Shown here one piece after another: positions 8,335 through 27,885 of a stretch of DNA of 36,222 nucleotides. Position 1 is the first letter of the stretch. Each line of letters opens with the position of its first letter. A program made the position numbers and the translations under genes. The DNA is from Candidatus Sulfotelmatobacter sp. (lineage in GTDB: Bacteria; Acidobacteriota; Terriglobia; Terriglobales; Acidobacteriaceae): the NCBI GenBank assembly GCA_025928375.1, contig JAICJP010000005.1:1-36222 (forward strand), written 5' to 3'. The notes beneath the pieces were generated by a model. It was not told the DNA's origin. It did not search any database and saw only the letters and a list, made by a program, of their open reading frames with translations.

Positions 8335-10671
8335 TTAGCGGCTGTTATCGCCTGCGACGATCCTAACCTGTTCGCTTTGCTGAATTGTGAAGGACAGAGA
8401 GGCATGCCTGTCGTGTTCCCCCGGCATCACGCGAACTGGAACTTCTTTTCCATTAAGAAAGCCGCGAACTCGATCGCCGGAAAACAATAGCTGAGGAACG
8501 AACTCCAGGTCGAATGGCTCGCCGGTGTTCGCTACCGACAGTTCTATCCCGCTCGAACTATGCTGCAAGGTGAACTGCAGGGTTCTGGAGCCGAAACGAA
8601 AATTATGAATAGTTACGTTGTTCAGTTGCGGCGGCAGATGCGGTTGGAAGCGCAGCTTATTGCCAGGGACGTCCGGATCCAGACCGAGAATTCCACGCAC
8701 GGTCGCGGTCATCAGTGCCGCTGAGGACCATGTTTGTTCCGGCACCGAGACCCCGAGTGGCACATTTGCAGTTCCCGACAGCACTTCCGGGATGTGGCCG
8801 GGGGATCCGATAAAGGAATCCTTCACTAGCGAGTACCACATAGGCCACGCCTGTTCCGGCCGATGCGCCACGAGTGTAGCCAGAATGTAGGTTTCTGTGC
8901 CAACCGGCCACACGCTGCCATGGGCGTACGAATCGGGCTGGTAAGCTGGATCGTCGCTCGGAATGCTGCGCAGGCCCCAGTCGGTTCGAAAAGCGGGCTG
9001 GGCGAGCCGATCGAGAACGAGCTCTCGCTCTCTAGCTGGGAACAAGCGTTGCGCGACTCCCCAGGCGGGTGACGCCATCTGCTGCTGCAGAGGCCGTTTG
9101 TCGGCCCGCAATCCCTCGAAATAGTAATTTCGCTCCGGATCCCAGAACTCTTTCAAGGAAGCACGGGCGCGTGTCGACGCCGAACGCCCTTGTTCACTTT
9201 CGGATGTATGTCCCGTGACAGCAGACAGTTCGGAGAACGCGTCTGCGCCCGCGGCCCAGACAAGCTCAAGCGGCAACTCTTTTTGGGTTCGATCCGCTTC
9301 GTTTTCGTTGACGCCGGACTGTTCTGGAGGGATCACCATCAGCCCATCTTCGGGATCCAGATGCTCGAGGCAGAATCGCCAGGCTGCTTCGAGCGATGGC
9401 CAGCTTGTATCGAGCAGGGAACGGTCACCACTCGATTCCCAGATATTACGCATGGCCAGCAGGTAGAGCGGGCTGATGTCGGTGTGGCGATAAATGTAGG
9501 GATACAGATGGAACCAATCCACAAATGAGGCACTCTGCGAAATCTCGTGCCAGATAGCGCCACTGTTGCGGTCCTGATACTTGCGGATGAAGCTCAAGGC
9601 GCGCACCGTTTCTTGGTGAGCGCCTTCGGCTTCCAAAGCCCAGGAAGTGACCAGCGCATCGCCGGCGAAGAACCAGGCGTATTGCGGGCGTCGAGTATCC
9701 CACGTTGGGCCATACCCGGCGAGCAGCCCACATCCGAGATCAGGATTGCAGCCCTCCGCCTCGTCCAGAGCGACCGTTGCCCAGGCAAGGGCTTTATCGA
9801 TCTCAGGATTGCCGGTGATGATTTGAAGGCTATTGTCTCGAAGGGTGCGATAGTGCGCGTCCGCCTGCTGCATCCATGATTCGTATTGCCTGCCTGCCGC
9901 TTCATAGACTTCGAGATCGTCATATTGCTTCGGAAGACGGATGGTTGCAATCAGCCGGACGACTGTGTGGGGCAATGCATGTAGACGAAGCGAGAGGACC
10001 TTGTCGGTAATCCATGGCTGCCTTCGATCGGCGGGGTCGGAATGCCCGACAATAGCAGGGGAACCAATGCGGGCGCGATATCTGCTGCTGGGTTCTTCAA
10101 TCAGAAAGCTTTTGTGAGCTTCTTCCCACGAATAAGTCTGCCCACCCATGCCGGCGGGCCACATCAAATCCATATCCGGCCGTAAAGTTACGTTGATATC
10201 GACCGGTTCTGCTGAATCGACTTCATAGGTGATGATCAGTGCCGGTTCATCCAGCGGCACGAAAAGCGTCTCGCGCACTGCGAGTCCATCTGCAATGTAG
10301 TGACGAGTGATGGAACTGGGAGTGACGGTGGCTGTCCGGGCACATTCACGACCCTCAACAATCTTCTCGCGCGCCGCAATCTGAAAAGTCACTCGAAGGT
10401 CGTGAAACATGCGGAATGGATAAAGGTATCCTTCCGCTCCCTCTGGCCCAATCGTAAAAAGAAATCCGCGCTTGCCGATGGAGGATAGGAAACGGTGCTC
10501 CAGGGTGCCTTCCCAAGTCAATGGTGAGCTCGTCGCATTCGCCGGATGAGCCTGGTCCCCGCTCGAGGCCTCTGCGGTGCCGAGTATGGCTGGACAAAGA
10601 AGCAAGGCAGTGATGAGGACGAGCTTTGAAAACACCACTGCGTCGCGGGACCGTTCCCTTTGGTTCATCAC
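8335..10671 (-). CDS. Secreted six-hairpin glycosidase / amylo-alpha-1,6-glucosidase-like protein
   Basis: Signal peptide near N-terminus; '(alpha/alpha)6' style motifs 'YGPTWDTRRPQYAWFFAGDALVTSWALEAEG', 'DWGLRSIPSDDPAYQPDSYAHGSVWPVGT'. Confidence 0.75.
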   Translation of the reverse strand: MMNQRERSRDAVVFSKLVLITALLLCPAILGTAEASSGDQAHPANATSSPLTWEGTLEHRFLSSIGKRGFLFTIGPEGAEGYLYPFRMFHDLRVTFQIAAREKIVEGRECARTATVTPSSITRHYIADGLAVRETLFVPLDEPALIITYEVDSAEPVDINVTLRPDMDLMWPAGMGGQTYSWEEAHKSFLIEEPSSRYRARIGSPAIVGHSDPADRRQPWITDKVLSLRLHALPHTVVRLIATIRLPKQYDDLEVYEAAGRQYESWMQQADAHYRTLRDNSLQIITGNPEIDKALAWATVALDEAEGCNPDLGCGLLAGYGPTWDTRRPQYAWFFAGDALVTSWALEAEGAHQETVRALSFIRKYQDRNSGAIWHEISQSASFVDWFHLYPYIYRHTDISPLYLLAMRNIWESSGDRSLLDTSWPSLEAAWRFCLEHLDPEDGLMVIPPEQSGVNENEADRTQKELPLELVWAAGADAFSELSAVTGHTSESEQGRSASTRARASLKEFWDPERNYYFEGLRADKRPLQQQMASPAWGVAQRLFPARERELVLDRLAQPAFRTDWGLRSIPSDDPAYQPDSYAHGSVWPVGTETYILATLVAHRPEQAWPMWYSLVKDSFIGSPGHIPEVLSGTANVPLGVSVPEQTWSSAALMTATVRGILGLDPDVPGNKLRFQPHLPPQLNNVTIHNFRFGSRTLQFTLQHSSSGIELSVANTGEPFDLEFVPQLLFSGDRVRGFLNGKEVPVRVMPGEHDRHASLSFTIQQSEQVRIVAGDNSR

Positions 10672-20037: not shown

Positions 20038-21804
20038 ATGGGGAACTCCTTTGCCACAGAGACACGGAGCCACAGAGAATTCGTGTTTACTAAATTCCTT
20101 CAGGTCTCTGTCCCCCTGTGCTTCATCATCGTCTGCCTGACTGAAAATGCTCAGGCCCAAATTCACTTCCAGGACATCACCGCGAAAGCCGGCATTCACT
20201 TCACACATAACAACGGCGCTTTCGGAAAGAAGTGGCTCCCCGAAACCATGGGGCCGGGCTGCGCGTTCATCGACTACGACAATGACGGCTATCCTGACAT
20301 TTTGCTGGTGAACGGGACAGACTTCTCCGGACATCCGCATGCCGGCACGACCACGCCCAAGCTCTATCACAACAATCACGACGGGACCTTCACCGACGTG
20401 ACTCGCCGTGCGGGACTAGCGATCCCGCTATTCGGCTTCGGAGTTGCGATCGGTGACTACGACAACGATGGCTTCGACGACATCTTCATTTCTGCGCTCG
20501 GCCAGAGCCATCTGTTTCACAACAACGGAAACGGCACCTTTACGGAGATGACGAAGTCCGCCGGCATGTGGGGTCCGAATGAATTCTCTACCAGCGCTGT
20601 CTGGGTGGATTACGATCGCGACAGCAAACTTGACCTGGTAGTCGCCAATTATGTGCAATGGAGCGAACAAGGCGATCTCTACTGCACGGTCGACGGCGCT
20701 CACAAATCCTATTGCACTCCTGAATCCTACAAAGGCACTTCAGTTCGTTTATGGCGCAGCTTGGGCAACGGCAAGTTCGAGGATGCGACGAAAAAGGCAG
20801 GCTTGGGAGACCCGACATCCAAGAGCCTGGGAATTGCCATTCTGGATTACAACGACGACGGCTGGCCGGACATCGTCATCGCTAACGACACGCAACCCAA
20901 CAAGCTCTATGTAAATAAAAAGAATGGCACGTTCGAAGAACGCGGCGTGGCTGCCGGAATCGGCTTCAGCGAAGATGGCGTTGCCCGCGCCGGAATGGGC
21001 ACCGATGCTGCGGACTACGACCGCAGCGGCCATGCCAGCCTGATGATCAGCAACTTCGCCAACCAGATGGTGTCGCTTTACCACAACGAGGGCAATGGAC
21101 TCTTCGTGGACGAAGCTCCTCAGTCAGAAGTGGGTCGCTCGACCCTGGTCACGCTGGGTTTCGGCTGCTTCTTTTTCGATTATGACAATGATGGCTGGCC
21201 CGACATTTTTGTGGCTGATGGACATATCGAGGATCAGATCGAGCGCGTGCAGAAGCGTGTCAGCTACGCTGAGCCGCCCCATCTTTTCCGCAATCTGGGT
21301 GCAGGAAAGTTTACGGAAGTTACAGCGCAGATGGGAAAATCGTTTGCCGCGGCGAAAGTGGCGCGGTCGGCGGCGTACGGCGACATCGATAACGATGGTT
21401 TCCCCGATATCCTGCTCACGACCAACTCGGGTCCTGCATATCTGTTCCACAACGAAGGCGGGCGCAATCACAGCCTGCGCATGAAGCTGATTGGCACAAA
21501 ATCCAACCGCGACGGGATCGGCGCTGTAGTGCGCGTGATCTCCGGGGGCGATAAGCAGTGGAAAATGCTGCGCTCCGGATCGAGTTATCTGTCCCAGAGC
21601 GAATTGACCCTGACGTTCGGACTGGCTGCCCAGACAAAAGCTGACGCGGTAGAAATTCAATGGCCCAGCGGCCAGGTTGACAAGCTCTCCAACGTAAATG
21701 CGGGACAAACCGTAACAGTAGAGGAAGGGAAGGGAATCGTCGGCAATCGACCCTATTCGACGCCGCGTGTTGCCGCAAAGCAGCAAGTAGCGCGAAATCA
21801 TTAG
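20038..21804 (+). CDS. Secreted FG-GAP/VCBS-repeat protein with ASPIC/UnbV domain (CRTAC1-like)
   Basis: Seven DxDxDG-type repeats (DYDNDGYPD, DYDNDGFDD, DYDRDSKLD, DYNDDGWPD, DYDRSGHAS, DYDNDGWPD, DIDNDGFPD) and C-terminal ASPIC-like 'MKLIGTKSNRDGIGAVVRVISGG...VEIQWPSGQVDKL'; ATG directly abuts upstream stop; alternative GTG start 20083. Confidence 0.9.
   Translation: MGNSFATETRSHREFVFTKFLQVSVPLCFIIVCLTENAQAQIHFQDITAKAGIHFTHNNGAFGKKWLPETMGPGCAFIDYDNDGYPDILLVNGTDFSGHPHAGTTTPKLYHNNHDGTFTDVTRRAGLAIPLFGFGVAIGDYDNDGFDDIFISALGQSHLFHNNGNGTFTEMTKSAGMWGPNEFSTSAVWVDYDRDSKLDLVVANYVQWSEQGDLYCTVDGAHKSYCTPESYKGTSVRLWRSLGNGKFEDATKKAGLGDPTSKSLGIAILDYNDDGWPDIVIANDTQPNKLYVNKKNGTFEERGVAAGIGFSEDGVARAGMGTDAADYDRSGHASLMISNFANQMVSLYHNEGNGLFVDEAPQSEVGRSTLVTLGFGCFFFDYDNDGWPDIFVADGHIEDQIERVQKRVSYAEPPHLFRNLGAGKFTEVTAQMGKSFAAAKVARSAAYGDIDNDGFPDILLTTNSGPAYLFHNEGGRNHSLRMKLIGTKSNRDGIGAVVRVISGGDKQWKMLRSGSSYLSQSELTLTFGLAAQTKADAVEIQWPSGQVDKLSNVNAGQTVTVEEGKGIVGNRPYSTPRVAAKQQVARNH
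20053..20120 (+). repeat. CACAGAG-type imperfect palindromic repeat inside the 5' end of the CRTAC1-like CDS
   Basis: 'gccacagagacacggagccacagaga' ... 'ggtctctgtccccctgtg', imperfectly complementary arms. Confidence 0.65.
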
Positions 21805-21867: not shown

Positions 21868-24800
21868 ATGAACCTGAAAATCTCCGCCGTCCTGGTTACC
21901 GCCTTACTTGCGGCCTTTGGCCTGCTGTATCCCACGCCTCAAACCAATTCCATCGAAGCCGCTCGCCTGAACAACCTCGGCTGCGCCTACATGAATCAGC
22001 AACTCTTCGAGAAGGGACTGAACGAGTTCCAGAAGGCGCTTCAGGCCGATCCGAAGTTTACGATTGCGCGCCTGAATGAGGGCGTGGCCTATTCGAATTT
22101 GCAGAAGGTAGATGAAGCCAAGGCCGCTCTCGATGACGCTCTGAAGCAGGATCCCAAGAATCCGAACGCCTGGTATAGCCTCGGCCTGCTGGCCAAGAAC
22201 ATGGGAGACGCACAGGCTTCCATCGACGATTTCAAGCACGTCAGCGAAATTGATCCCAACGACGCCGACACCTGGTACTTCCTGGGCAGCGCTTACGTAC
22301 AGGCCAAGCAGTTTCCGCAGGCCATTGACGCGTTTGAGCATGCGCTGAAAATCAATCCGCTGCATGCTTCGGCAGAATTCGGGTTGTCGCGCGCGTATCA
22401 GCAGTCCTCAGACGTCAGCGACGCCCGCGAGCACTTGAAGAAATTCCAGTACATCACGCAGAACAAGATCGGCGCGCCCATGAGTCTTGCCTACGGCGAG
22501 CAAGGGAAGTACTCGCGTGCAGTGGAGTCGCCGCAAGCTGTCCTGAAAGCCCCCCCTCAGATCAAAGTGCGTTTTGTGGATGTGACGAAGGAAGCCGGAT
22601 TAACTTCGGGGTCTGTTGCTGATCCATCGGACACTTTGGGTACAGGGGCTTGCTTCGTGGATTATGACAATGACGGGAAAATGGACATCTTTCTGCCGGA
22701 CAACGGCGTTCAGGGGATGTCGTTGTTCCACAATGTCGGAGGGGGCAAATTCGAAAATGTGACGGCAAAGGCGGGTCTCGATGTCAGTGTTCACGGCATT
22801 GCTTGCACTGCAGGCGATTATGACAACGATGGTTTCAGCGATCTGGCAGTGACGTCAAAAGACGCTGTCACGTTGCTTCACAACGAACATAACGGCACGT
22901 TCAAGAACGTGGCCGTGTCTGCTGGAATTAAGGGCGCGTGCTGTCCCGCGGGCGTAACTTTTGTCGACTATGACCATGATGGAGATCTGGATTTGTACGT
23001 TGCCAACCGTTCCGGTTCCCTCAGCCAGCATGAAACGGGAAATAGCCGGATGTGGCGCAATAACGGGGATGGGACGTTCACCGACGTTACAGAGGAAACA
23101 GGTTTAGGCGGGAATTCCGGCGCGCACAGTGCGATCGCTACAGACTATAACAATGATCGTGCGATCGATCTGTTTGTAACCAGCAGCGCGCCAGAGATTC
23201 TGGAGAATCCACGCGAGGGGAAGTTCAAAGAACGCCGCCTGTGGCCGGATCCGGTGGGAATGAGCCCCACGGGAGTTTCAATTCTTGATTTTGATCATGA
23301 TGGGTGGATGGATTTCGCATTGACCCATCCCGCCGAGCCGGGCTTAACTCTCTGGCGCAACAACGCTGGGAAATCCTTCGAGCGGGCAGAACTTCCGGAA
23401 ACCAACTGGGTCCGTGCCGGTGGCCTCGCCGCGTTCGACTACGACAACGACGGCTGGGTTGACCTGGTCACTGTCGGCGAGACGAAAGACGGCAAAGGCG
23501 AAATCCGCTTATTCCGCAATCTTGGCCCAGATGGATTCAAAGACGTGAGCGCCGATGTTGGCCTCAATAGTATTCAGCTCAAAGAGCCGCGTGCGATCAT
23601 CACCGGGGACTACGACAATGACGGCGCCACCGACCTGCTCGTCACGCAGAATCATGGTCCCGCCGTTCTCCTGCGCAACGAAGGCGCAACGCAAAATCAC
23701 TGGCTGAAGCTTTCGCTCAAGGGGCTGAACGACAACAAGTCCGCCATCGGCACGAAAGTGGAGGTCTTCTCCGGCGGCAATCGGCAGAAGTTTGAAATCT
23801 ACGGCTCCAACGGCTACCTCGGCCAGAATTCCACCGACATCGTCGTGGGCCTGGGCCAATCGAAGAACGCGGACATTGTTCGCATGCTCTGGCCGAGCGG
23901 CGTGCTGCAGGACGAAGTTGACGAAAATCAGGTTGCCGGTGACAAGCTTCATGAACTTCTTGAAATCGATCGCCGTGGCAGTTCCTGCCCAACGTTGTTC
24001 GCCTGGAACGGCGAGAGGTACGAATTTGTTGCGGATACGCTAGGCGCCGCGGTCGTAGGACACTGGATCGCACCCGGACAACGCGACATTCCGCGCCCAG
24101 TTGAATACATTAAGATTCCGACGGGCCTGCTTCGGGAAAAGTCCGATTCCCATGTCTCGCGAAACCAGCGAGTCATGGGGTACCCCATTCGTGACACCGA
24201 CCAAAATGAGGGTGCCCCACTTCTCGCCGATGTTGCGCGAAGTGGGAATGGCGGCGTTCTGAGCTTCCGGTTCATGGAACCGCTGGAAGAAGCCGTCTAC
24301 CTCGACCGGGTGCGCCTGTTAGCAGTGGATCACCTCGGAGACGAAGACGTCTACCCCAACGAATATTTCGCGTCGAACCCGCCCTATCCGCAATTCAAAG
24401 TCGTAGTGAGCCGCAACGCGCAGCCGCCGGTGGGCGCGTGGGACGAGCACGGCCACAATCTGTTGCCCGATCTGCTGGCGCACAAGTTCGTCGGCGATTT
24501 CGAGATGACCCACTTCCAAGGCTTCGCTGAATCGCACTCTCTCGTGCTTGATTTAGGAGAGCCCTACGGTGGCGGCCCGCTCTGGCTCATGATGCACGGT
24601 GAAATCGAGTACTTCACGGCGAACAGCATGTACGCTGCCGCGCAAGCAAAGTTGGAGCCCATGGCACCTTACGTGGAAGCGCTCGGCGCGGATGGAAAGT
24701 GGAAGCGTGTGATAAATGATCTGGGCTTCCCCGCCGGCGGCCCGCGTACCATGACTGCCGATCTCAGCGGCAAACTTCCTCTGGGCACCAAGAAGATTCG

Positions 24801-25389
24801 CATGACCACGAATCTGCAAATCTACTGGGACAATATCTTGATCAATCGCACGGCGCAGGGGACCCGCGCGCCGAATCACCCACGCTTGCACACGATTCCC
24901 CTGGTGCACGCCGACCTCGAGTTCCACGGCTATCCCTACAAGGTCGAGGGCCTTCCCGCAGGCAATGTTCGATACGTCTACGAGAAGACCAGCGCGACTG
25001 GGCCATATACGCGACCCATTGGCACGTACACAAGGTACGGCAACGTGCTTCCGCTGCTGACCGCCGTCGATGATAAGTTGGCCGTCTTTGGTTCCGGCGA
25101 CGAAGTCCGGCTCGACTTCGATCCCTCAAATCTGCCGGAGTTGCCCAAGGGCTGGGTGCGCGACTATTTCTTCGCCGCAAACGGCTACGAAAAAGATATG
25201 GACTTCTACGCCGCGCGGGGGAACTACGTTGCGCCGCTGCCGTTCCTGAGCATGGGCGACTATCCTTACTCGCCAAAGCAGCATTTTCCAATGGACGACG
25301 CGCACGTGAACTATCTGCTCGAATACAACACGCGGCACATGTCAGGACACGAGCAGCGGGGATACTGGTTCGATTACGGCTCGAAGTGA
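21868..25389 (+). CDS. Large TPR + FG-GAP/VCBS + ASPIC/UnbV (CRTAC1-like) protein with long C-terminal extension
   Basis: N-terminal signal sequence, about 4-5 TPRs, seven DxDxDG-type motifs, ASPIC-like 'LSLKGLNDNKSAIGTKVEVFSGGNRQKFEIYG...VRMLWPSGVLQDE', then 'CPTLFAWNGERYEFVADTLGAAVVGHWIAPG' C-terminal region. Confidence 0.9.
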   Translation: MNLKISAVLVTALLAAFGLLYPTPQTNSIEAARLNNLGCAYMNQQLFEKGLNEFQKALQADPKFTIARLNEGVAYSNLQKVDEAKAALDDALKQDPKNPNAWYSLGLLAKNMGDAQASIDDFKHVSEIDPNDADTWYFLGSAYVQAKQFPQAIDAFEHALKINPLHASAEFGLSRAYQQSSDVSDAREHLKKFQYITQNKIGAPMSLAYGEQGKYSRAVESPQAVLKAPPQIKVRFVDVTKEAGLTSGSVADPSDTLGTGACFVDYDNDGKMDIFLPDNGVQGMSLFHNVGGGKFENVTAKAGLDVSVHGIACTAGDYDNDGFSDLAVTSKDAVTLLHNEHNGTFKNVAVSAGIKGACCPAGVTFVDYDHDGDLDLYVANRSGSLSQHETGNSRMWRNNGDGTFTDVTEETGLGGNSGAHSAIATDYNNDRAIDLFVTSSAPEILENPREGKFKERRLWPDPVGMSPTGVSILDFDHDGWMDFALTHPAEPGLTLWRNNAGKSFERAELPETNWVRAGGLAAFDYDNDGWVDLVTVGETKDGKGEIRLFRNLGPDGFKDVSADVGLNSIQLKEPRAIITGDYDNDGATDLLVTQNHGPAVLLRNEGATQNHWLKLSLKGLNDNKSAIGTKVEVFSGGNRQKFEIYGSNGYLGQNSTDIVVGLGQSKNADIVRMLWPSGVLQDEVDENQVAGDKLHELLEIDRRGSSCPTLFAWNGERYEFVADTLGAAVVGHWIAPGQRDIPRPVEYIKIPTGLLREKSDSHVSRNQRVMGYPIRDTDQNEGAPLLADVARSGNGGVLSFRFMEPLEEAVYLDRVRLLAVDHLGDEDVYPNEYFASNPPYPQFKVVVSRNAQPPVGAWDEHGHNLLPDLLAHKFVGDFEMTHFQGFAESHSLVLDLGEPYGGGPLWLMMHGEIEYFTANSMYAAAQAKLEPMAPYVEALGADGKWKRVINDLGFPAGGPRTMTADLSGKLPLGTKKIRMTTNLQIYWDNILINRTAQGTRAPNHPRLHTIPLVHADLEFHGYPYKVEGLPAGNVRYVYEKTSATGPYTRPIGTYTRYGNVLPLLTAVDDKLAVFGSGDEVRLDFDPSNLPELPKGWVRDYFFAANGYEKDMDFYAARGNYVAPLPFLSMGDYPYSPKQHFPMDDAHVNYLLEYNTRHMSGHEQRGYWFDYGSK
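24149..24246. repeat. Tandem palindromic element (two hairpins flanking a GGGGTACCCC palindrome) inserted in frame in the CDS
   Basis: CCCATG-t-CTCGC-gaaacca-GCGAG-t-CATGGG (24149-24179); ATGGGGTACCCCAT (24175-24188); CCCACTTC-t-CGC-cgatgtt-GCG-c-GAAGTGGG (24216-24246). Confidence 0.75.
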
Positions 25390-27850: not shown

Positions 27851-27856
27851 GGATCA

Positions 27857-27885
27857 GGAGTGTCCCATTGGAAGTGGGACACTCC
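27857..27885. repeat. Strong palindrome GGAGTGTCCCA-N7-TGGGACACTCC between convergent genes
   Basis: Perfect 11-bp stem with 7-nt loop, no U-tract on either strand. Confidence 0.75.

Follow-up and report, generated by a model that had tools for sequence, protein, structure and literature searches.

A gene for a TPR/CRTAC1-type protein of Candidatus Sulfotelmatobacter very probably carries an inverted pair of copies of REP-A, a REP-like hairpin, which was copied into the gene from a repeat family most likely spread by a RAYT-type transposase, is now read as a surface loop of about 36 residues, and lies at a site that has been occupied recurrently. In the window, by which we mean the whole stretch of 36,222 nucleotides analyzed, the gene encodes a protein of 1173 residues with a signal-like segment at its N-terminus and Pfam matches to FG-GAP_3 (9e-44), UnbV_ASPIC (9e-13) and TPR. 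By its named homologues, the host belongs to the Acidobacteriota near Candidatus Sulfotelmatobacter, from soil and peat. A paralogous FG-GAP/CRTAC1-type gene lies directly upstream (20038-21804), and many relatives likewise have a paralogue upstream. The features discussed below are collected in Table 1.

Table 1 Features of the host gene, of the captured doublet and of the related transposase genes (window positions unless a locus is named).
Feature	Position	Strand	Remarks
Host gene, TPR + FG-GAP/VCBS + ASPIC/UnbV (CRTAC1-type) protein	21868..25389	+	ORF, 1173 aa
REPIN-like palindromic doublet of 104 nt, probably captured; in-frame residues ~760-794	24146..24249	+	Covariance model matches to both units; missing in about half of homologues
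Unit 1, reverse orientation, arms 24149-24160/24168-24179, encodes SHVSRNQRVMGYP	24146..24186	-	Covariance model R1, 54.1 bits, E 4.1e-9
14-nt perfect palindrome ATGGGGTACCCCAT, 3' arm + head of unit 1	24175..24188	+
Spacer, 22 nt, separating the units	24187..24208	+
Unit 2, forward orientation, arms 24216-24227/24235-24246, encodes EGAPLLADVARSGN	24209..24249	+	Covariance model R1, 62.8 bits, E 3.7e-11
Site 2, second variable loop of the host protein, residues ~1003-1010	24874..24897	+	Short in the window; other repeat-derived inserts in ~30/81 homologues
RAYT genes of relatives with their own in-frame REP-A, more copies nearby	L263 934-1584, L264 566-1270, L265 1751-2332, L266 1032-1874	-

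The element consists of one unit of about 41 nt present twice in opposite orientation, with the heads pointing inward and the ends reading ATTCCC...GGGAAT. The two hairpins of identical layout with 7-nt loops that had been noted from the sequence were recovered at the same positions, each with 11 of 12 arm positions paired; the frame across them is open, with the peptide as quoted earlier. The preliminary description required adjustment: the element is real but slightly wider than the proposed 24149-24246, and the 14-nt palindrome between the hairpins, although perfect, is not a separate component but the arm and head of unit 1. Its perfect symmetry results from a single substitution, GGGGTACCCC in the window copy against GGGGTGCCCC in the consensus. 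The consensus of the REP-A unit is GGGGTGCCCCAC[T/G]TCTCGCCGATGTTGCGAGA[A/C]GTGGGAAT. Codon-shuffled copies of the host gene contained a mean of 0.085 such hairpins, compared with the 2 observed. Further strong hairpins at 9596, inside ORF 8335-10671, and at 27856-27858, between genes, gave no match to the REP-A model.

Searches of the host genome (4.49 Mb in 484 contigs, 84% complete) established that the element is multi-copy, as the first reading of the sequence had anticipated. By blastn, more than 20 further significant copies were found, and over 32-53 nt unit 2 is 81-94% identical to copies elsewhere in the genome; a control on 170 kb of reversed sequence gave 0 hits. With a covariance model trained on 28 copies, 45 copies were detected at E<0.05, of which 43 reached E<=0.001. 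With the same model, REP-A was present in all 25 genomes of the genus including the host (3-141 copies in each of the 24 genus-mates) and in 0 of 16 genomes outside it; every genome compared is a metagenome assembly. Like REPs, REP-A is an imperfect palindrome of 20-45 nt (a 41-nt unit) with a shared sequence and many copies (43-45 in the host), mostly extragenic, with 5 of 44 host copies in frame within 4 genes, and associated, in relatives, with a RAYT gene. Its hairpin foot is GTGC, the consensus head GGG-GTGC immediately preceding the stem CCCAC. The foot tetranucleotides GTAG (or GTGG) and CGTC are absent from the consensus, and REP-A was not filed in those superfamilies. Further stretches resembling repeats (CGGCTGTCCGG...) lie close to REP-A copies on host contig C157 (L019) and at L010 and L016, which suggests more repeat families in the host genome.

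Alignment of homologues revealed that the insert interrupts an otherwise compact turn, designated site 1. The homologues align on both sides of it and many are empty, reading IREKDGK/LSFRFMEPL across the junction (slash). Among 82 readable homologues, the short turn (IREKDGKLSF) is found in 43, and 39 carry extra residues; no conserved sequence spans residues 755-797, and, measured against empty homologues, the insert adds a net length of about 36 codons (residues ~759-795). Together with the dispersed copies, these empty homologues support the initial proposal of a REP-like mobile palindrome captured as a peptide insert. The spacing between flanking anchors, measured without assuming that the frame is open, was a multiple of three and free of stops in 83/83 loci, 41 of which were longer than the empty state. 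The sister loci L103 and L110 differ by 39 nt, present in L103 as one perfect 12-bp hairpin, and further filled/empty sister pairs are L140/L102, L070/L086 and L085/L081. No clear target-site duplication was seen in these empty-site pairs, whose flanks have diverged.

In-frame REP-A copies in the host genome lie in the window gene, a GT2 glycosyltransferase, an alpha/beta hydrolase and the linker of a GAF-type protein, as judged by open frame and inspection; homologue alignment confirms the first three genes, and the GAF-type linker is a candidate. Compared with genus-mates, the GT2 and hydrolase loops are empty or short in some species and filled in others, the fillings being REP-A peptides (FSQKAREMGHP, VSQKVRDMGHP, FPVLATSARSGAP) or other repeats. 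The alpha/beta hydrolase at L253 (genome G001) contains near-identical NEVAPPVSRSLRQGG-type repeat peptides in tandem, in the loop occupied by REP-A in the host. Several long open frames over other REP-A copies, for example on C25, C461 and the minus strand of C157, were rejected as spurious by composition.

REP-A adjoins, and sits within, RAYT (Y1 transposase) genes of four relatives (G011, G014, G015 and G016); the copy inside the gene keeps the frame and separates the HUH motif from the tyrosine region. The model for REP-associated tyrosine transposases, NF047646, scored above cut-off in both genes scanned (G014 and G015). Of the cognate type of transposase, the host genome retains fragments only, one of them interrupted by a stop, and the repeats beside them look like a sister family of REP-A; the mobilizer in the host is therefore deduced from the relatives. 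The only host Y1_Tnp gene above cut-off is cut by the end of contig C252 (L067), and copies of another palindrome, TGTAGGGGCGGACGCCTCGTCCGCCCC, with a GTAG start, lie near it. This fragment was discarded as the mobilizer, since it looks like a different subfamily beside another repeat.

From the gene arrangement in relatives, we infer that REP-A is mobilized by a RAYT-type enzyme, most likely a REP-associated tyrosine (HUH/Y1) transposase that would act in trans on hairpins formed by single strands. In the proposed pathway, a pair of these genus-specific hairpins would have been copied into the codons for a tight beta-turn, at the Asp-Gly of the empty gene, and would now be read as a loop of about 36 residues. 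Survival inside a gene would require a net length that is a multiple of three, absence of stops in the frame used, and a loop tolerant of extra residues. Most REP-A copies (22/28) lack stop codons in every one of the six frames, compared with 28% of dinucleotide shuffles, which would help them survive in genes. The host's only doublet among 44 copies is that in the window, so it could represent two separate single insertions; the same layout recurs at this locus in L068, L085, L112 and L135.

In other species, the junction at site 1 also receives other inserts, of the CHPERSEG...AQDD, TSDLGPQ and VGAG types, some in tandem or nested with REP-A, a feature that the first reading of the sequence had not noticed. 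These families and REP-A are mutually unrelated in sequence and, judged on that basis, cannot derive from one event. Because REP-A and unrelated palindrome families fill the same turn, it appears to be a permissive, recurrently occupied site. The CHPERSEG-type repeat gave 7-51 genome matches in each of 6 carriers searched. At site 2, the VAPPSRR-type repeat gave 31-77 genome matches in each of 4 carriers, and frame and absence of stops were kept in 80/81 loci. Across both loops, three families are confirmed as multi-copy (REP-A, CHPERSEG-type and VAPPSRR-type). In L048 and L135, a further short repeat (CCTGCCCTGAGCTTGTCGAAGGGT, ALSLSKG) appears to be nested in the right arm of REP-A at site 1, still in frame.

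In an AlphaFold model of 574 residues (mean pLDDT 70), the insert (model residues 162-194, corresponding to 761-793) has pLDDT <50 and forms a loop between strands 146-151 and 198-204. A PDB fold search with the C-terminal half returned no reliable match. Comparison with the 90%-identical homologue L068 gave a dN/dS of ~0.50 for the insert and 0.09 elsewhere, the former a very imprecise value from 35 codons; faster evolution of the insert is as expected of a tolerated spacer. The alternative that the loop peptide has been recruited, its sequence or length selected for a particular role, for instance as a binding surface or a spacer, appears unlikely. Such selection could account for the filling of the loop in about half of homologues, for a dN/dS of about 0.5 rather than 1, and for the recurrence of the frame S-H-x-S-Q-N...G-H-P in single REP-A inserts at site 1 and in the GT2 gene; however, the recurrent frame may equally be explained by tolerance of a hydrophilic peptide, and unrelated inserts of about 6-73 residues are interchangeable at a loop that is often absent. 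The insert peptide is probably functionally neutral.

Loop states were mapped on a tree built with both loops masked, a quick tree on which gene exchange is possible. The site-1 loop state requires 30 changes, presence versus absence 15, and REP-A alone 15, of which 13 are forced by well-supported branches. A single ancestral insertion, inherited and diverged so that the different peptides are its decayed versions, could explain the doublet shared by the window and L068, as well as the reverse-then-forward doublets with a similar spacer start in L112, L135 and L085. We regard it as improbable for the site as a whole, because the families there are unrelated, REP-A and the CHPERSEG-type repeat already exist as separate dispersed repeats in the genomes, REP-A inserts differ in their stem arms with pairing intact, and filled species alternate with empty ones across well-supported branches. 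In the clade of 13 species around the window, one doublet may go back to a common ancestor, as its layout is shared by L068, L085, L112 and L135. How many captures were independent is uncertain, given the quick tree, possible gene exchange and this possibly ancestral doublet.

Skipping of the hairpins by the ribosome, or a role of the insert solely as an RNA element in the mRNA and outside the protein, would suit the strong predicted folding of the message (-59.7 kcal/mol for a 132-nt region) but is highly improbable, as skipping would not require the frame and absence of stops that are kept at both sites. Capture of REP-A as a peptide loop is the preferred reading, and the insert is probably translated.

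Several known systems resemble this arrangement. The Rickettsia palindromic elements (RPEs) are multi-copy palindromes found in frame in unrelated protein genes and in intergenic DNA, and in one case that was assayed, the enzyme bearing an insert retained its activity (PMC2229807, PMC10969869). REP-A likewise inserts in frame in conserved protein genes and is absent from orthologues. Compared by description, RPEs are elements of 105-150 bp in Rickettsia, whereas REP-A belongs to Acidobacteriota, has units of ~41 nt (104 nt as the doublet), is RAYT-linked, and lies mostly outside genes. The comparison with RPEs made at the outset is therefore sound as an analogy, REP-A itself being a different family. 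Intragenic GTAG/CGTC REPs, as monomers and dimers, encode 20-30 residues inside genes of several genera, and two Xanthomonas species carry different REPs at roughly one shared position in recB (PMC3733652). In the present case, by contrast, the foot is GTGC, and one loop in dozens of species holds several unrelated families. RAYT-like genes with inverted repeats have been recorded in Acidobacteria, for example Koribacter (PMC3733652). REPs inserted in the transposase gene itself characterize TnpA-REP subclass 2.4, described mainly from Cyanobacteria and Bacteroidetes (PMC6006769), and the in-frame REP-A between the HUH motif and tyrosine of the relatives' RAYT genes resembles this arrangement. 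The doublet is similar to a REPIN in having one REP twice in opposite orientation with a short spacer, and differs in that only one such inverted pair exists among the 44 host copies. No report of the REP-A family or of the site 1 loop was found in the open-licence literature searched. In-frame capture of REPs is already known; what is new is the group of hosts, the family of repeats, and the filling of a single loop by different families in dozens of species.

The loop looks like a recurrent landing site through which mobile DNA becomes protein, since relatives carry unrelated repeated hairpins there. We lean slightly towards a broader view, in which the two turns are standing landing sites that unrelated palindromes enter, replace and leave in frame across the lineage, producing species-specific loop peptides. 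If true, this would be a general route from repeats to new protein loops in Acidobacteriota. Earlier examples of in-frame palindrome capture were mostly isolated ones; the present loop is orthologous across more than 80 species and can be examined there in its empty, filled, nested and seemingly replaced forms, so that the rate at which mobile DNA becomes protein, its decay and any recruitment become measurable. Recurrent odd peptides in the protein predictions of this group (SHVSQNQRDMGHP, CHPERSEGS, GAPLLADVARSG) are explained as repeat-derived.
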